Source of the DNA: Candidatus Woesearchaeota archaeon
GTDB taxonomy: Archaea > Nanobdellota > Nanobdellia > Woesearchaeales > ARS49
Direction of reading: 5' to 3'
NCBI GenBank assembly: GCA_018302815.1
Contig: JAGVZE010000007.1
Location: 186,001 to 250,000, forward strand
DNA length: 64,000 nucleotides
Shown: in pieces, positions 44,604-58,800 of the stretch
Numbering within the stretch: position 1 is the first letter of the stretch
Layout of the letters: each line of letters opens with the position of its first letter
The notes under the pieces: model-generated
What the model was told of the DNA's origin: nothing
Seen by the model: the letters and a program-made list of their open reading frames with translations, nothing else
The model's database searches: none
Translations under genes and position numbers: made by a program

Positions 44604-44665
44604 TTTAACTTCACTGGACAAACGCACAGGTGAACTATTTAAGCATTTATGCTGGCAATGCAGTA

Positions 44666-45436
44666 ATGAGTCCTGATGAGATAGCTGCAGAACTTTGCGG
44701 GATAATACTGGGGGATGGACATGTTCACAAGCATTCTAATCGCATCACTATATCTGGGAGTTCGGACGATCTCGTTTATTTCCGAATAAGAGTCATCCCA
44801 CTTTTTCAGAAACTTTTTCCATTTGTAAATCCAAGAATTGTGAAGCTTAAGAACAAGAACGCATATAATCTTGAAGTAGAAAATAAATCTATCATCAATT
44901 TTTTCATTGGGCGATTCGGTTTTAAGCGTGGGCCAAAGTATGAAGCACACATACCGCCAGACATTCTTTCGTCTCCTTCATTCATACCTCATTTTTTGCG
45001 CGGCTTATTTGATACGGATGGGTGCTTGAAATTCTCAAAGCAAGCCAGAGCTTATTCCTATTATCCGCGCGTCCGCATCGCGCTTGTTTCCTCTCCACTC
45101 ACACATCAACTCAGTTCTATTCTTACGCAGGCAGGTTTCACTTTCAGCAAAGGCACTCAGCAGAATCATGGATATGCGACTAAGAGATCGTTGGTGTGCT
45201 ATGAAATCTCGGGGAAACACGCGTTTGAAAAATGGATGCGCCTCATTCGACCTGCAAATCCAGTCCATGTGACAAAGTATGAATACTGGAAGAAGTTCGG
45301 ACACTATATACCGAAGATAACTTTTGCTGAACGCATTCGGCAAATAGGCCCGGGCGGATTCGAACCGCCGTCACAGGAGTCAGAGTCCCGTATACTTGAC
45401 CGCTATACGACGGGCCTGTTGGACATGGAACGCTAA
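44666..45436 (+). CDS. LAGLIDADG homing endonuclease, intact two-motif form
   Basis: A 256-residue protein with two LAGLIDADG-type motifs: ELCGIILGDGHV (about 8-19) and FLRGLFDTDGCL (about 114-125), giving a monomeric site-specific endonuclease. A TATA box (CTATTTAAGC) 27 nt before ATG 44666 supports this start over GTG 44630. The gene is convergent with tRNA-Gln(CTG): its reading frame runs straight into the tRNA gene (45346-45417, opposite strand) and ends beyond it, so its last ~30 residues are antisense of the tRNA. It is free-standing, not inside an intron or intein that I can see. Confidence 0.8.
   Translation: MSPDEIAAELCGIILGDGHVHKHSNRITISGSSDDLVYFRIRVIPLFQKLFPFVNPRIVKLKNKNAYNLEVENKSIINFFIGRFGFKRGPKYEAHIPPDILSSPSFIPHFLRGLFDTDGCLKFSKQARAYSYYPRVRIALVSSPLTHQLSSILTQAGFTFSKGTQQNHGYATKRSLVCYEISGKHAFEKWMRLIRPANPVHVTKYEYWKKFGHYIPKITFAERIRQIGPGGFEPPSQESESRILDRYTTGLLDMER
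45346..45417 (-). tRNA. tRNA-Gln (CTG)
   Basis: A 72-nt tRNA on the minus strand. Acceptor AGGCCCG/CGGGCCT is perfect, T-arm GGCGG/CCGCC with loop TTCGAAT is perfect, anticodon stem CGGGA/TCCTG holds the loop CTCTGAC (anticodon CTG). A TATA box (CTTTAAATA) lies about 25-35 nt upstream. No intron. The 3' end abuts the end of the homing endonuclease gene. Confidence 0.95.
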
Positions 45437-46565: not shown

Positions 46566-46645
46566 TATAGCCCTGACCGGATCTGAAAAACCCTGCGAGG
46601 TTTTCCAGCCCATGAAAAGCCAATGGCTTTTCAGGTTCGAACTAC
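46566..46645 (-). repeat. tRNA-Gln 3'-end remnant with a hairpin insert (copy A)
   Basis: Read on the minus strand, the tail of a tRNA (GTTCGAACC, then GATCCGGTCAGGGCTATA) is interrupted inside the T-loop by a 50-nt insert (46584-46633). The insert holds two hairpins: TGAAAAGCCA/TGGCTTTTCA and a GGAAAACC/GGTTTTTC-type stem. A mirror-image T-arm (GAACTA...TAGTTC) precedes it. It resembles the neighbouring tRNA-Gln(TTG) 3' end (GAATCCGGTCGGGCCTAT). Confidence 0.65.
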
Positions 46646-46730
46646 GCTCACTTACGTTCGCTAGTTCAAATCCGCTCGTGGCTATGCGCATATTTATGCG
46701 TTGATGCTTCGCATTTGAATAGCTTAGCAA

Positions 46731-46788
46731 TATAGCCCCGACCGGATTCGAACTGCCCCACCCCTTCGGGCTGGTGCAGTTCGAATCC
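46731..46788 (-). repeat. tRNA-Gln 3'-end remnant with inverted T-arm (copy B)
   Basis: On the minus strand GCAGTTCGAATCCGGTCGG (46740-46756, continuing GGCTATA) is another truncated tRNA 3' end. A second, inverted copy of the T-arm follows: GGATTCGAACTGC (46744-46756) and GCAGTTCGAATCC (46776-46788) are a perfect 13-nt inverted repeat around a CCACCCC/GGGCTGG hairpin. The adjacent sequence (to 46833) holds further short hairpins. Confidence 0.65.
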
Positions 46789-46833
46789 TCAGTGCACATT
46801 TCTGTGCAGGGACTTTGTCCTTAACTATTTCAT

Positions 46834-46905
46834 AGGCCCGACCGGATTCGAACCGGTGTCAACGGGTCCAAAGCCCGCTATACTTGACCGCTATACGACG
46901 GGCCT
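46834..46905 (-). tRNA. tRNA-Gln (TTG)
   Basis: A 72-nt tRNA on the minus strand: acceptor AGGCCCG/CGGGCCT, anticodon stem GCGGG/CCCGT with loop CTTTGGA (anticodon TTG), T-arm ACCGG/CCGGT with loop TTCGAAT. A TATA box (CTTTATAAG) lies about 27-33 nt upstream. It shares its acceptor and D-arm sequence with the tRNA-Gln(CTG) gene. Two degenerate 3'-end copies lie downstream. Confidence 0.95.
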
Positions 46906-53803: not shown

Positions 53804-53882
53804 TCAAAAACCAGAATCGAGAAGGTATAAATGCTTATTCGTGCGCTATCTTTATAAACCGCTCCTGAATCGTTCAATTTAT

Positions 53883-53976
53883 GTCCCGGTAGGCTAACGG
53901 ATAGATCGCAAAAACGTAATGCGTTTTTGAGAACTCGGAAAGCTCGGCTTTTCGCGTTTATGAAAATCAAACACAC
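53883..53976 (+). repeat. 5' remnant of a tRNA-Arg gene with a palindromic insert
   Basis: 53883-53905 (GTCCCGGTAGGCTAACGG...) matches the first 23 nt of the adjacent tRNA-Arg at 21 of 23 positions. It then breaks into a stretch with two hairpins: CAAAAACG/CGTTTTTG (53909-53929) and CGGAAAGC/GCTTTTCG (53936-53954). TATA (CTTTATAAAC, about 53849-53858) lies in the right place to start transcription at this remnant. Confidence 0.7.
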
Positions 53977-54048
53977 GCCCCTGTAGGCTAACGGATAGAC
54001 TGAGCGGTTGCGGTCCGCTATATCTGGGTTCGATTCCCAGCAGGGGCG
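53977..54048 (+). tRNA. tRNA-Arg (GCG)
   Basis: A 72-nt tRNA: acceptor GCCCCTG/CAGGGGC, anticodon stem AGCGG/CCGCT with loop TTGCGGT (anticodon GCG), T-arm CTGGG/CCCAG with loop TTCGATT. The D-arm has one mismatch. No intron. It is flanked by a 5' remnant (53883) and a 3' remnant (54086). Confidence 0.93.
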
Positions 54049-54085
54049 TTTGATTTTCCTTTTTTATTGACGGAGCTTTTTGCGT

Positions 54086-54187
54086 CTGAGCGGTTGCGGT
54101 CCGCTATATCTGGGTTCGTCTTAAAGGAGCATAGCGATTTTAAGAACTCGAAAATCCGCAGATTTTCGCGTATTCCACGCAGGGGCG
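54086..54187 (+). repeat. 3' remnant of tRNA-Arg with a palindromic insert in the T-loop
   Basis: 54086-54118 is identical over 33 nt to the anticodon arm through the first T-loop bases of tRNA-Arg. A 53-nt insert (54119-54171) follows within the T-loop, then ATTCCACGCAGGGGCG, the rest of the tRNA. The insert has two hairpins: TCTTAAA/TTTAAGA (54119-54145) and CGAAAATC/GATTTTCG (54149-54168). It is clearly related to the insert in the 5' remnant (AGAACTCG, TTTTCGCGT shared). Confidence 0.75.
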
Positions 54188-54334
54188 TTCTTATCTTCAA
54201 TCGGGTTTTCAAGAACAGGGTTGTAATCTTTCCAAACCCCTTTATAAACGCCTTAGAATTCTTCTAAATTGTAGTCTCTTTTTAGTGATTAAATAATGGA
54301 AAGATTTATAAAGCATTATTTGCAGATATCGTCT

Positions 54335-55297
54335 ATGGGTGAACAAATGACGACTCGGAAAGCAGGTATGATGCCTGCGGTACGAACAATAGAGGACTTT
54401 TTGTCAGTTGGCATTTCGATACATTCCACTATTGAAACTGAACTGCTCACAGTACTTTCCAGACTTGAAGATAAACTGGCGCATAAAGTGTCGCTTGAAC
54501 TTACAATTTCAGGCAAGACAATCGAGTATGGAGATGTCTGCGAATCGCATTCACGCCTGCAATTAATCGAAGGCGCCTATCTTACTTTTGAAAATGATCC
54601 GCTTCTCCTAAGCTTAAAATCGAAGGAATATTTGCGCGAAATCGCGCCTTATCTCGCCCTTGCTGTGCGCTCAGTTATGGTTGCGGAATCCCAGCGAAAC
54701 CTCGCGGGACTCGCCTTGACAGACGGCCTTACCGGCCTTCACAACAGGCGCGCGCTTGACAGGTTAATCGGAGATGAACTAGCCGAACTGCGCGAACAGG
54801 AACGAAGAGACAGCAAACGCCAAAACGACTCTACTCACGGTCTTTCAGTAATGATGCTTGATGTCGATAATTTCAAAAGCTATAATGACCGCCACGGACA
54901 CGGCGGCGGAGATGAGACTCTTCGAACGCTCGCGCAATATCTGCGCCACGGCAGGCGAAAACACGACGGCGTCTTTAGATACGGCGGAGAAGAATTCGCA
55001 ATAGTTTTGCCTGATTGCCCGCTTGACGCGTCTATTCGCAGAGCGAATGAAGTGTGCGCTTACGTAGCAGAACAATCAATTAATGATTCAAAGCAGGGAA
55101 AACTTCCTGAGTCGTTCACTATCTCAATTGGCATAGCCAATACGTCTGAACTTCCTGCTGAAACGCGCTACGAAGGAACAAAAAGCTCTTTTGGCGGAAT
55201 AGATTATTCGATAGTAGCTTTCGCAGATGAGCGTTTGTATGTCGCGAAGAAAAATGGACGCAACAGGGTTTGTTCGTCGAGCGCCCCTGTGCAGTGA
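54335..55297 (+). CDS. Diguanylate cyclase (GGDEF) with intact active and inhibitory sites
   Basis: A 320-residue protein: an N-terminal domain of about 115 residues (GAF-like in style), then a GGDEF domain. The signature is GGEEF (217-221), LTDGLTGLHNRR marks the domain start, and an RKHD inhibitory site sits exactly five residues before GGEEF. This fits synthesis of cyclic di-GMP from two GTP. There is no membrane segment. TATA (GATTTATAAAGC) 27 nt before ATG 54335 supports a leaderless start. GGDEF proteins are rare in archaea, so horizontal transfer is possible. Confidence 0.92.
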   Translation: MGEQMTTRKAGMMPAVRTIEDFLSVGISIHSTIETELLTVLSRLEDKLAHKVSLELTISGKTIEYGDVCESHSRLQLIEGAYLTFENDPLLLSLKSKEYLREIAPYLALAVRSVMVAESQRNLAGLALTDGLTGLHNRRALDRLIGDELAELREQERRDSKRQNDSTHGLSVMMLDVDNFKSYNDRHGHGGGDETLRTLAQYLRHGRRKHDGVFRYGGEEFAIVLPDCPLDASIRRANEVCAYVAEQSINDSKQGKLPESFTISIGIANTSELPAETRYEGTKSSFGGIDYSIVAFADERLYVAKKNGRNRVCSSSAPVQ

Positions 55298-55342
55298 TTA
55301 TACTTCGTAAGGTTTAAATAGGGTTCCTCGGTTGAGTCCATA

Positions 55343-55774
55343 ATGGAGTATCTCACAATCGATGAACTCAATCTTTGCTGGGAAAACCAGCTGAAAAAGG
55401 CGCATAGGATGTGTATGCCAAGAACGCTCATCGTTTGCGAGTTTCCACAAGATACTTCAACTCTCCAAGCGATCATATCAGACACGCCAGGATGCTTTGC
55501 TAAACACGGCTACGGCTCGACTATCGCGGTTCTTTTCTCAAACGAATTAGAGTATGCCTGCGTGATTGCAGAGATGGCAGCCCATTATTCCCGTAACGGC
55601 ATAGAAACAGCCTTATCTGCGGTGACATACAACGGAACCCAGAACGTCCCTTCAGATGACTTTGAAACCGCCGCTCGATTATCCCTCGAAAGTGCGTTCA
55701 AGAATATGCAAACCGCACGAAAGACAAAACAGCCGGTTCACTGCGATCTTTCAGAACTACTCCAGACTCAGTGA
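55343..55774 (+). CDS. Hypothetical protein, possibly degenerate GGDEF-like
   Basis: A 143-residue soluble protein. The middle (PRTLIVCEF...KHGYGSTIAVLFSNELEYACVIAEMAAHYSRNGIETALSAVTYN) follows the strand-helix-strand order of a GGDEF domain but has lost the GGDEF signature. It sits 45 nt downstream of the active cyclase and overlaps the convergent Hel308-like gene by 7 nt. It could be a partner or receptor; this is inference. TATA (GTTTAAATA) 27 nt upstream. Confidence 0.55.
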   Translation: MEYLTIDELNLCWENQLKKAHRMCMPRTLIVCEFPQDTSTLQAIISDTPGCFAKHGYGSTIAVLFSNELEYACVIAEMAAHYSRNGIETALSAVTYNGTQNVPSDDFETAARLSLESAFKNMQTARKTKQPVHCDLSELLQTQ

Positions 55775-57264
55775 GACTTCGGCTCAAATTCCCCGAAGAC
55801 GTCATCCTCGAGCTTCTCGCCAACTTGTTTTTTGAGAGATTTAGCGACAGAATCACCAACAATTCTTGCAAGCTTTTCCTGCGATGCGTTTTTTACATCG
55901 CCAACATCCTTTATCCCTTCCTTGAACAACTTTCTAGCACGCACGCGCCCAACCCCTTCAAATCGTATCAGCGCGAGCAGCTCCTCCTTTACTCCATACT
56001 TGAGCCGTAGCCTTGTCTTGACTATCTCTTTTAGCAACGGCTGCAAAGAAAGAAGCCTTGCAAGCTCATGGCAGGAATACAAAAGCCAATCAGCATTATC
56101 GATCTTCACGCGCATCTCGCCCGGCCTGCAATCATATTTTTCAAGCATCCACTCCTCATCCTTCTCGTCAATCCATTCCTCAAGCATCAGAGCAGTCTTG
56201 AACGCGTTTAGATACTCTTCATATTCAGGCTCGAACATGCTCGGCTCGGGTTTAAGCAAGTAGGATTCCAAAAGGTGATATTTTTCCTGCACATCATCAA
56301 ACTCTTTTTGCTTAACCCTCAAAAGAGGACGCATCTCGAGCGAATCGCAGACAAGATGAAGGAATGAAATCGACTTTAGTTTTATCGACTCTGAACGCAT
56401 CAAAGCATCGATGAAAATGTGCGCGGTGAGCGGGTCGAGATAAAGCTCGGCCACTCGTTTTCCAATGATAGTCGCGCGATACCCTTCCTGAATTTCCTGA
56501 ATGAATCCCCACTCCATCAACAGTTTAAGCATCCTGTCAATAATTTTTGCCATACGCTCCAAATCATTATACTGGAACGCCCAGAAAGTCCTGCTGAAAA
56601 AATCCAAAATGGTCTCTTTCGAATGAATTATCCTGCTGTTGATAAGCGAAAGAAGATAAGTTCGTAGAACAGGCTCTACCGCGAGCTTGCTGTAAATCTC
56701 CTCAGGAACGCCCCTAAGATATGTGTCTATGACATATTGTTTGTCAGTCTCTGTTTGAACAATAACGATAGCTTCGCCCACAGTGTCGTATTTTGGCCTT
56801 CCCGCGCGCCCTGCCATTTGAAGGAATTCCAGAACAGGAATCGGCGCCATACCATGCGGGCCAAAACGCTTCAAATCCCTTATTATCGCCCGATACGCAG
56901 GCAAGTCAAGACCTGCCGCGAGCGTCGGCGTGCACGCGATTATCTTGATAACACCCTCGCGAAAAGCGTTTTCTACCAATTCTTTTTGCTTCGCGTGCAA
57001 ACCCGAATGATGGAACGCGATACCCTTTTTCGCGCAAAGCGCAAGACGTTCGCATTGTTTTGTTGGTCTTGGAAGGATGGTTTTGATGTCTTCTGATAGC
57101 TGCGATAGGGCGTCTGATTTAAGCGGTGATTTCTTCGAGATATCCTCTGCTACTTTTTCAGCCGAACGCTTCGCATTGACAAATACTAACGCCTGTTTCT
57201 TGAGCTCAATAGTATCAAGCGCTAGGTTGACCACCGGATCCGGACTTTTTTGCAGCAGGTTCAT
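55768..57264 (-). CDS. hel308: Hel308-like helicase lacking the first motor domain
   Basis: About 498 residues that match Hel308 from the second RecA domain on: motif IV (ALVFVNAKRSAE), motif V (IIACTPTLAAGLDLPA), motif VI (QMAGRAGRP), then winged-helix, ratchet and helix-hairpin-helix (EGVGRVRARKLFKEG) parts. The whole N-terminal RecA1 domain with Walker A, DEAH and SAT motifs (about 200 residues) is missing. Upstream there is tRNA-Ile and mobile sequence. The frame opens at TTG 57327; ATG 57264 is the likely start. Split or truncated gene. Confidence 0.85.
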   Translation of the reverse strand: MNLLQKSPDPVVNLALDTIELKKQALVFVNAKRSAEKVAEDISKKSPLKSDALSQLSEDIKTILPRPTKQCERLALCAKKGIAFHHSGLHAKQKELVENAFREGVIKIIACTPTLAAGLDLPAYRAIIRDLKRFGPHGMAPIPVLEFLQMAGRAGRPKYDTVGEAIVIVQTETDKQYVIDTYLRGVPEEIYSKLAVEPVLRTYLLSLINSRIIHSKETILDFFSRTFWAFQYNDLERMAKIIDRMLKLLMEWGFIQEIQEGYRATIIGKRVAELYLDPLTAHIFIDALMRSESIKLKSISFLHLVCDSLEMRPLLRVKQKEFDDVQEKYHLLESYLLKPEPSMFEPEYEEYLNAFKTALMLEEWIDEKDEEWMLEKYDCRPGEMRVKIDNADWLLYSCHELARLLSLQPLLKEIVKTRLRLKYGVKEELLALIRFEGVGRVRARKLFKEGIKDVGDVKNASQEKLARIVGDSVAKSLKKQVGEKLEDDVFGEFEPKSH

Positions 57265-57375
57265 TTGTTGTTGGTTAACTTCAGTATAGCTTTTACCATA
57301 ACCTTTAAAAAGCAATCCACTCCACAACGAGTATCACGGCCCCGTAGCTTAGCCTGGTGGAGCATTCGACTGATA

Positions 57376-57394
57376 ACCCACAGATGGGCTAGAC
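57376..57394 (+). other. tRNA-Ile intron 1 (position 37/38)
   Basis: A 19-nt intron ACCCACAGATGGGCTAGAC. It folds as a hairpin (CCCA/TGGG) next to the 3-nt bulges TAA and ACA, with a weak central helix (CTGA/CTAG) as in a relaxed bulge-helix-bulge. Cutting after the second base in each bulge joins GATA to ATCGAA and restores the anticodon loop. Confidence 0.8.
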
Positions 57395-57400
57395 ATCGAA

Positions 57401-57419
57401 AGCGTCAAAACGCCGATTA
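57401..57419 (+). other. tRNA-Ile intron 2 (after position 43/44)
   Basis: A second 19-nt intron AGCGTCAAAACGCCGATTA. It has a GCGT/ACGC hairpin, 3-nt bulges AAA and TAA, and a perfect 4-bp central helix ATCG/CGAT. Cutting after the second base of each bulge joins TCGAA to AGGTC, giving a normal variable loop. It is in a non-canonical position. Confidence 0.8.
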
Positions 57420-57449
57420 AGGTCCCGTGTTCGAATCACGGCGGGGCCA

Positions 57450-57624
57450 TTTTTTTTAATACTCTGTGTGTACTATGCTGTGGCGGCGTGATTCGAAAAT
57501 CCAACCACTTCGTGGCTGTCCCTCAAGAAGTTCGCTTTTGCTCACTTCTCGAGGTCATCAGACCTTCGGTCCTCGACTTTAGAACGCTCGTTTTACTCAC
57601 GTATCTAAAGTCACAGCGGGGCCA
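57450..57624 (+). repeat. Hairpin-rich stretch and 3'-end remnant of tRNA-Ile
   Basis: An inverted T-arm CGTGATTCGAA (57487-57497, mirror of 57430-57440) opens the block. Then come stems CCAC/GTGG, CCTCAAGAAG/CTTCTCGAGG (one mismatch), GACC/GGTC and ACTTTAGA/TCTAAAGT. It ends with TCACAGCGGGGCCA (57611-57624), a copy of the tRNA-Ile 3' end. It matches the remnant pattern beside the other tRNA genes and marks the end of the homing endonuclease gene. Confidence 0.7.
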
Positions 57625-58014
57625 TTTATATTTCAAATCATCAAAAGTGCATTTAAACCCTAATTCTGTTATTACTTCATCAAGTTTGACTCTCAATATT
57701 TCACTTTCACTATTTGTCAGTCTTACCATGAACAAGTCTTTCCAACCATATTTTTTTCTTTCATGGACGTACATTTTCGGAGTGAGCTTCAGTTGTTTGA
57801 GTAAACCCATCAGTTGGGCCGCAAGGTTTTTAGAAATTGTCGACAAGATGAATTTCTTCTTCAAATATCCGTCACTTAACGCCAAACCAAGTATGAATCC
57901 TTCGTTAAACTTTGATGATTGCACATTTCTTAAACACACTGATTCCGATTTTAATCTTGAAAAAACGAGATACTTTTCGGGGAATTTGTAAATAAATTTA
58001 GAGTGAATTTTTAA
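57523..58014 (-). pseudogene. C-terminal half of a LAGLIDADG homing endonuclease split by an IS
   Basis: This fragment reads LKIHSKFIYKFPEKYLVF at its interrupted end and carries the second LAGLIDADG motif, EGFILGLALSDGYL. No ATG precedes the frame. It joins in frame to the N-terminal fragment (58801-59211) when the intervening 786 bp is removed. Its far end runs through the tRNA-Ile 3'-end remnant, so the endonuclease gene converges on that tRNA as in the tRNA-Gln(CTG) case. Confidence 0.75.
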
Positions 58015-58800
58015 TTAGTTTGCCAAGAATTCGTCAGGGTCTGGAGCGTAGCGGAAGACCTGACGATGAATTGGCATAAAGCGTAAGTATTGGTTGCTAT
58101 TTCTTGTTACTGGCGCTGTCAAAGAGACTGGTAGGAAGCACACCAAACGCAACAGTGTCGCCCTCTGACCACTTTTCGTAAAGCGGTGAGGGTTCGAGCC
58201 AACCCGGCGAGCAGCGATGATGTGCTTCTTTTGAACCTTTTCTTTATAGCGTGAGCTATAAAAAACTTTCTGGAGATGATTTTTATGACGAGAAATGATA
58301 CGAGAAATAACTGGTTAGACTTTATGTTTGTGACGAAATGCAGGTACAACTGTTTTGGAAAGCAGTCGCACATTGACACGTGCACTGCGGCATTTCGCGA
58401 ACTCGAAGCATTCGGCTTTGAGTTCGGAGTGTTTGGTTTTGGCGGGACGCATGTGCATTTTCAGGCGAATGTGCCAAAGAAATACGCAGTACAGGTCGCG
58501 GAAATCATGTTGAAGTCGCGCTCAGCACAAAGGATGTTCGAAAAACATCCAGGTTTTCGCAAGCGTTACCCACGAGGAAGTTTCTGGAGCGGATACGAAT
58601 ACCACGAATCGATTGGTCGCAAAGACTTTGCAGAATCAACAGAGTACATTCTTGACCAAGAACACCACCACAATGTCAAAGTAATTGACGACCGACAACA
58701 AAAACTAAACGCCTTCACCGCCGAGCGAGATACGGCAAGCCCCGCAAGGGCTTGACGAGAAGCGAAGGCGGAAAGGGGTCATAGGGGGTCGCACCCCCTA
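58015..58800 (+). mobile_element. IS200/IS605-type insertion sequence
   Basis: A segment of about 786 bp with a single transposase gene. Structured ends: an imperfect 56-nt hairpin at 58021-58076 (TGCCAA...TTGGCA outer, CGTCAGG...CCTGACG inner), and a perfect 8-bp stem TAGGGGGT/ACCCCCTA at 58782-58800. A further TTTATAGC/GCTATAAA hairpin lies before the gene. The endpoints are inferred from where the split homing endonuclease frame rejoins (GAATTTTTAA to TTTCATAC). No direct repeat flanks it, as expected of this family. Confidence 0.7.
58285..58755 (+). CDS. tnpA: IS200/IS605 TnpA transposase (Y1-type)
   Basis: A 156-residue HUH transposase. The HUH motif is His56-Val57-His58 (GTHVHFQANVP) and the catalytic tyrosine is Tyr121 (ESTEYILDQEHHH). 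The helix KSRSAQRMFEKHPGFRKRY and SFWSGYEYHES are typical. It would act as a dimer on single-stranded hairpin ends. ATG 58285 has GGAG upstream. No tnpB gene accompanies it. Confidence 0.93.
   Translation: MTRNDTRNNWLDFMFVTKCRYNCFGKQSHIDTCTAAFRELEAFGFEFGVFGFGGTHVHFQANVPKKYAVQVAEIMLKSRSAQRMFEKHPGFRKRYPRGSFWSGYEYHESIGRKDFAESTEYILDQEHHHNVKVIDDRQQKLNAFTAERDTASPARA

Follow-up and report, generated by a model that had tools for sequence, protein, structure and literature searches.

tRNA loci of the window

We analysed a window of 64,000 nucleotides (nt; positions 186001-250000 of contig C26, JAGVZE010000007.1) from the genome of a Candidatus Woesearchaeota archaeon (G000; 1.55 Mb in 26 contigs, with 41 tRNA matches), in which the genes for tRNA-Arg, tRNA-Gln (TTG) and tRNA-Ile are accompanied by pieces of themselves and by short, non-coding hairpin elements. 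Such pieces had been noticed in the initial annotation, and at all three loci we found an intact gene followed by pieces of its own sequence. The annotation treated hairpin inserts within the pieces as the main feature; the larger phenomenon is a set of hairpin units arranged in tandem, each duplicating a tRNA 3' end. More than broken tRNAs, the Gln and Ile pieces belong to this repeating architecture as units, and the two loci are organized as follows:

46833-46905, minus strand: complete tRNA-Gln (TTG) (ARAGORN and Rfam)
46733-46832, minus strand: Gln array unit 1, consisting of leader, inverted T-arm, hairpin and direct tRNA-Gln 3' end (flank survey)
46568-46732, minus strand: Gln array unit 2, with its T-loop split by the second type of double hairpin (flank survey)
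46583-46635, minus strand: double-hairpin insert of the second type, after TTCGAA in Gln unit 2 (sequence and unit alignment)
57338-57449, plus strand: intact tRNA-Ile with intron (Rfam)
57450-57624, plus strand: Ile unit, consisting of inverted T-arm, several hairpins and direct tRNA-Ile 3' end (flank survey)

The Gln array thus spans 46568-46832 with two units, and the split T-loop that the annotation described in a Gln copy is indeed present. At the tRNA-Arg locus, the following features were identified:

53851-53858, plus strand: TATA box (TTTATAAA), 25 nt ahead of the 5' tRNA-Arg fragment (direct reading)
53883-53905, plus strand: outer tRNA-Arg copy, 5' fragment, nt 1-23 (sequence; arrangement also in the relative G023)
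53906-53957, plus strand: upstream double hairpin, inserted after outer-copy nt 23 (held-out model match, fold z, kept in G023)
53962-53971, plus strand: left arm (GAAAATCAAA) of the inverted repeat flanking the working tRNA-Arg (sequence)
53977-54048, plus strand: complete tRNA-Arg (GCG) (ARAGORN and Rfam)
54049-54058, plus strand: right arm (TTTGATTTTC) of the same inverted repeat (sequence)
54086-54118, plus strand: outer tRNA-Arg copy, 3' part, nt 24 to T-loop nt 57 (sequence; copy detected in the flank survey)
54119-54171, plus strand: E-type double-hairpin element at T-loop 57^58 (64 bits with the covariance model R1, of which it is a training sequence; empty site in G023; fold z -2.8)
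54172-54187, plus strand: outer tRNA-Arg copy, T-loop nt 58 to the 3' end (flank survey)

Here nt 1-23 upstream and nt 24-72 downstream (54086-54118 and 54172-54187) make up a single outer tRNA-Arg copy that is split around the complete inner gene. The inner gene is flanked by the 10-nt inverted repeat and is directly followed by Arg-derived pieces (54049-54187). The split arrangement, including the upstream insert, is conserved in G023. On direct reading of the locus the inner gene has no TATA box of its own, and the sole evident promoter is the box at 53851-53858, ahead of the whole outer copy. Both Arg inserts had been assigned to the T-loop; this is correct for the downstream insert, at 57^58, but the upstream one follows nt 23 of the outer copy. 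The reported likeness of the two inserts was borne out, with a local alignment score of 35 against a best of 30 in 2000 dinucleotide shuffles, and both fold better than shuffled sequences (z -3.0 upstream and -2.8 downstream). The upstream insert was also recovered as a held-out match (25.9 bits) by R1, a covariance model of the E-type double hairpin whose training set includes the 54119-54171 insert and G023 sequences.

Occurrence of unit arrays on tRNA genes

To measure the extent of this feature, we surveyed the downstream and upstream flanks of all 41 G000 tRNAs and of the tRNAs of four same-family relatives (G023, G013, G005 and G015). The family comprises tiny, uncultured archaea; in G000 the Hel308-type helicase has its nearest counterparts in metagenome-assembled Woesearchaeota genomes (51-58% identity for the best), making a woesearchaeote the most likely source. 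The relatives' tRNA positions were taken from Rfam; ARAGORN with forced introns gave mostly false tRNAs on their contigs. Units were detected by the 16-mer of the tRNA 3' end, with at most 4 mismatches, within 700 nt downstream, and the numbers of units and arrays vary with such thresholds. On this basis 17 of the 41 tRNAs in G000 carried 25 units downstream, one to three per tRNA, each unit ending exactly at a copy of its own tRNA's 3' end. Downstream arrays were also found on 19/37 tRNAs in G023, 11/30 in G013, 5/25 in G005 and 4/19 in G015, so the feature is not specific to the window. The shuffled null, computed in G000, G023 and G015, gave 0.6-1.5% of tRNAs (about 0.8% in G000), and the same 16-mer search applied upstream in these genomes found 1/41, 3/37 and 0/19 tRNAs, respectively. 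A local-alignment version of the survey in G000 (score of at least 24, within 500 nt of the tRNA) agreed, with direct copies of the 3' end downstream of 15/41 tRNAs and upstream of 0/41; the top shuffled scores were 22 for direct and 24 for inverted copies.

Beyond these genomes, a strict pattern of the simple unit was matched in 7/26 genomes of the same family and in 3 of about 165 other genomes of the order, and its reversed control had no match in either set. A tRNA lay at or near the match in 12 of the 14 loci found by the strict pattern. A phylum-wide sample gave matches in 7/371 genomes, three of the seven outside the family. On viral contigs the pattern picked up, by chance, the anticodon loop of viral tRNA-Ser genes, and also a group of prophages in which half a tRNA is inverted at a probable attachment site; neither represents the element described here, and one of them had no match in the phage collection. 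The prophage-like group (L243, L246, L248, L251, L252, L256 and L259) carries a near-perfect inverted duplication resembling the tRNA-Met 3' half. In L251 it adjoins an integrase-like open reading frame (ORF) and is likely an attachment-site palindrome.

Architecture and folding of the units

The units follow a fixed order: a leader of ~45 nt, an inverted 3' half of the local T-arm, one or more hairpins and the direct tRNA 3' end. Simple units are mostly 93-109 nt and units overall mostly 65-280 nt; they hold no gene and encode no integrase of their own. The direct copy stops at the tRNA's last base and often starts in the T-stem (-21 to -25), otherwise in the T-loop near -16, the detection being biased toward copies that start at -16. 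The mirror-image T-arms that the annotation pointed out are general: 47/78 units of five genomes contain the inverse of their own T-loop octamer, against a mean of 3 and a maximum of 9 in shuffles. It mostly lies 39-56 nt into the unit, with a typical start at about 45 nt, and the T-stem beside it gives 178/329 matches to the own tRNA against a permuted mean of 135 and maximum of 157. Matching of the acceptor stem to the own tRNA was at chance (51 versus 50), and our claim for the inverted arm is therefore restricted to the T-arm. The direct box reads GTTCRAAT and the inverse box ends in GAAC. Leaders hold a short hairpin with paired changes; a MAFFT alignment of simple units was used for this covariation alone, because it misaligns the T-arm stem. 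In addition, the Glu unit 2 at C16:24947 of G000 (281 nt) and the locus C21:64437 (L286) show a longer nested palindrome (GGAATGCCACC...GGTGGCATTCC) within a Glu unit, and in L286 the GGTGGCATTCC half lies beside an E-like element.

The hairpins carry a strand signature. On the tRNA-sense strand, GNA triloops occur in 35/91 hairpins and TNC triloops in 9/91, compared with ~4 for both together in shuffles, and GT plus GA mismatches outnumber their complements, AC plus CT, by 42 to 17. The triloop and mismatch biases indicate that it is the tRNA-sense strand that folds, as single-stranded DNA or as RNA. GNA triloops are known to be stable in DNA, and their prominence favours DNA over RNA as the folded strand. 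Stable RNA tetraloops are not prominent (GNRA 4/56, TNCG 2/56).

Turnover of units

Units are related across loci: 64 pairs aligned with a score of at least 40 (null maximum 26), many of them between isotypes (for example, Leu, Ser and Glu). They also come and go between close relatives. G000 and G023 both have the Cys unit, which G013, a congener of G023, lacks; Gln units occur in G000 and G013, and none follows the tRNA-Gln that was examined in G023. Decay is more advanced in distal unit copies than in proximal ones (p 0.02-0.05).

These data bear on the idea that the units are structured trailer RNAs, that is, host RNA genes or maturation elements that are co-transcribed with the tRNA and kept by selection, much as the tyrT repeats. 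Paired changes are seen in the Cys unit between genera, in leader stems and in the stems of E-type elements, the bias of loops and mismatches is on the sense strand, and the promoter of the Arg locus precedes the whole outer copy. However, selection for such a function does not sit well with rapid turnover between congeners and decay of distal units, many units open with a T-rich stretch that would probably terminate archaeal transcription, and GNRA and TNCG tetraloops are as scarce as noted above. We consider it rather unlikely that trailer RNAs account for the arrays.

Double-hairpin elements in tRNA loops

Elements of the E type occupy T-loop 57^58 of Arg and Glu copies in G000 and of Glu, Ala and Ile copies in G023, that is, the same insertion point in at least four isotypes and two genera. 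The annotation had inferred a palindromic family that targets the T-loop of tRNA genes, and the repeated insertion point agrees with this, although the T-loop is not the only target: a held-out R1 copy in G017 lies within the loop of the Cys unit's hairpin, and several R1 matches have no detected tRNA nearby. It had also proposed that relatives be searched with a covariance model and compared for filled and empty sites. Held-out R1 copies were found at 57^58 of spare tRNA ends in both G017 and G002, and the Arg site filled in G000 is empty in G023, whose orthologous outer Arg copy has no E insert. The two outcomes that it had named as counting against its idea, an absence of further copies and similarity at chance level, were not observed. 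With R1 at E <= 0.05, matches were present in 9/25 same-family genomes besides G000 (one of the nine, G023, having given training sequences) and in 3/31 genomes outside the family, each of the latter single and weak.

The second stem shows compensatory changes in 4/8 pairs among eight sequences, which supports the paired differences first reported between the two Arg inserts. A conserved tetranucleotide tag (for example, GTAG) was not noticed in the alignment of E elements, for which no systematic scan was made. The second type of double hairpin, found in Gln unit 2 (46583-46635), occurs in two tRNA-Leu arrays elsewhere in G000. It too has an empty site, in the related Leu unit 2 on C17 as compared with the filled unit 3 on C24.

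Candidate enzymes and neighbouring genes

Several genes in the window and elsewhere in G000 are relevant to how the elements might move. Those of the window are:

58276-58755, plus strand: Y1 (IS200-like HUH) transposase gene, the only copy in G000 (PF01797, 5.6e-11)
57523-57939, minus strand: LAGLIDADG_3 ORF overlapping the Ile unit (Pfam, 7.4e-07)
44630-45436, plus strand: LAGLIDADG ORF beside and overlapping tRNA-Gln (CTG), on the opposite strand to the tRNA (profile match)

The annotation's statement that no integrase is present is true within the window, but G000 as a whole has eight tyrosine-recombinase hits, three of them just downstream of tRNAs, and the window itself contains the Y1 gene. 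One integrase belongs to a 13.1-kb integrative element at a tRNA-Arg (C24:61406-74772; L018, L232; tyrosine integrase ORF of 427 aa). At its right end the tRNA sequence is repeated from -15 onward and directly adjoins an older hairpin unit, which places the insertion of the element between the tRNA and this unit, with the T-loop breakpoint in common. The units might be attachment-site relics, each left behind by a virus or plasmid that had integrated through T-loop crossover by its tyrosine integrase, and the breakpoint and the recombinase hits beside tRNAs would fit. Yet simple units are uniform in size (93-109 nt) and architecture, as random relics would not be, and the right end of the 13.1-kb element has neither inverted T-arm nor hairpins. 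We regard this origin as improbable.

An IS200-like route was suggested by the Y1 gene, which lies about 0.65 kb past the Ile array and has hairpins in its flanks; the protein contains the HVH motif. Short palindromes, sometimes paired, are also a trait of the REP/REPIN elements that accompany RAYT transposases (PMC3116915, PMC2817692), and the Y1 protein of G000 is single-copy. Unlike REP elements, the units are inserted at tRNA T-loops, and Y1 is not linked to the arrays across relatives: it was not found in the array-bearing G023, G015 and G005. Furthermore, the apex motif GAGCnnnGCG is at chance level in the window, and the protein scores under the NCBIfam IS200 cut-off. Given its absence from the hits in array-bearing relatives, Y1 was dropped as main driver, and a REP/RAYT-like system run by this gene appears very improbable.

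In G000, 6/41 tRNAs have a LAGLIDADG ORF no more than about 300 nt away; the corresponding figures are 2/30 in G013, 1/37 in G023 and 1/19 in G015. Besides the two of the window, the free-standing ones beside G000 tRNAs include C18:3686-4573, C26:83661-84512 and two more, and two of the tRNA-side ORFs that we read have a probable N-terminal helix-turn-helix. Such nucleases might cut tRNA genes and leave break-and-repair scars, in which fold-back synthesis and template switching copy the tRNA end both ways and leave hairpins; the ORF overlapping the Ile unit (57523-57939) is a possible driver of such breaks. Repair of this kind would account for the occurrence of the local T-arm in both orientations as well as for the split outer tRNA-Arg copy. 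However, scars should be idiosyncratic, whereas similar units are found at many isotypes, as is a single double-hairpin module that keeps to one insertion point. Moreover, 8 of the 10 tRNAs with a nearby LAGLIDADG ORF carry no unit, and G005 has units but neither such an ORF near the tRNAs examined nor any PF14528 match. We think break-and-repair an unlikely explanation. The 13.1-kb integrase element and the tRNA-linked LAGLIDADG genes may serve as leads to the enzyme. Separately, a gene at 54296-55297, between the Arg and Ile arrays, encodes a GGDEF-domain (diguanylate cyclase) protein, which is unusual in an archaeon.

Relationship to known systems

In the E. coli tyrT operon, which encodes rtT RNA, tandem repeats downstream of a tRNA each contain the tRNA 3' end. 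The arrays described here share such tandem copies; they differ from the single tyrT operon in affecting many isotypes per genome and in having an inverted T-arm, hairpins and T-loop inserts, and no Rfam family besides tRNA, rtT included, matched the window at the gathering score.

Double-hairpin elements have been described in Allomyces mitochondria as short non-coding repeats (Paquin, Laforest and Lang 2000, as cited in PMC2800124), and repetitive hairpin-forming elements are known from sponge mitochondrial DNA (PMC2800124). The inserts described here likewise consist of two adjacent short hairpins that are non-coding and repeated, with filled and empty sites between relatives. In both cases the distribution is patchy among relatives, mobility has been proposed and the enzyme is not named. 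The likeness is one of form and signs of mobility. Unlike the organellar elements, those of the archaeon cluster beside tRNA genes, have a fixed insertion point in the T-loop and are coupled to tandem copies of tRNA 3' ends. Integrative elements that target tRNA genes also leave tRNA fragments, but they are typically about 9-23 kb and carry an integrase (PMC9897764). The units, like the 13.1-kb element, have a duplicated tRNA 3' end at the far junction and leave the proximal gene whole, and differ in being mostly about 100 nt and non-coding, with no integrase of their own.

A further parallel is with integrons, whose cassettes carry attC sites with the boxes R' (GTTRRRY) and R'' (RYYYAAC). As in integrons, there are tandem cassettes that end in an imperfect palindrome, inverted and direct boxes and a strand-biased fold. 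The cassettes here contain no gene and their boxes are the tRNA T-loop sequence; since the direct box GTTCRAAT has C at the first R of GTTRRRY, the units were not assigned to attC. Integron cassette arrays and attC sites exist in archaea as well (PMC9668308). It is conceivable, though we hold it to be doubtful, that the arrays form an archaeal, non-coding cassette system of integron-like logic acting on folded single-stranded DNA, in which the tRNA T-arm is the home site, each insertion renews the tRNA 3' end and the double hairpins enter loops. In the literature searched, non-coding hairpin elements with tandem arrays on many tRNA genes of a single genome and repeated entry into one T-loop position have not been reported.

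A proposed model of mobile hairpins on tRNA genes

Considering the arrays, their identity to the local tRNA, their spread over isotypes, the filled and empty sites, the repeated insertion point and the presence or absence of units between congeners, we lean towards the view that these are small non-coding mobile elements, targeted to hairpins, that act on tRNA genes in two layers and are mobilized in trans, the moving form probably being a folded single DNA strand. In the first layer, units that in their simple form are mostly 93-109 nt would settle between a tRNA and its old flank. Since every unit closes with a second copy of the tRNA 3' end, the proximal gene remains complete and the displaced end is pushed outward, and arrays appear to grow at the tRNA-proximal side. 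In the second layer, double-hairpin elements of 50-60 nt would enter hairpin loops, chiefly T-loop 57^58 of spare tRNA ends; inserts are seen only in spare copies, presumably because selection spares intact tRNA genes. Movement would involve folding of the tRNA-sense strand and cutting by an enzyme encoded elsewhere, which might be a tyrosine recombinase, an HUH nuclease or another.

Several observations weigh against this view. First, no enzyme was tied to the hairpin elements: G003 has an array and zero PF00589 matches, and the distribution of Y1 given above does not follow that of the arrays. Second, two arms that both match the local tRNA are hard to obtain by simple insertion, and copying or gene conversion may be needed. 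Third, RNA would account for the strand signature just as single-stranded DNA would, the Cys unit has changed in pairs as a functional RNA would, and the paired changes in units could stem from template-switch correction or from selection on RNA. Finally, several E-like R1 matches lie away from any detected tRNA, and every genome is a draft assembly, probably metagenome-assembled.

Mobile DNA lands more often at tRNA genes than anywhere else, and the elements described here seem to be a little-known class of it that targets these genes. Comparing congeners that have or lack a given unit allows the movement of mobile hairpins, an issue still debated for the mitochondrial double-hairpin elements, to be tested directly. 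The units may also contribute to an understanding of the frequent fragmentation or rearrangement of tRNA genes in DPANN archaea.

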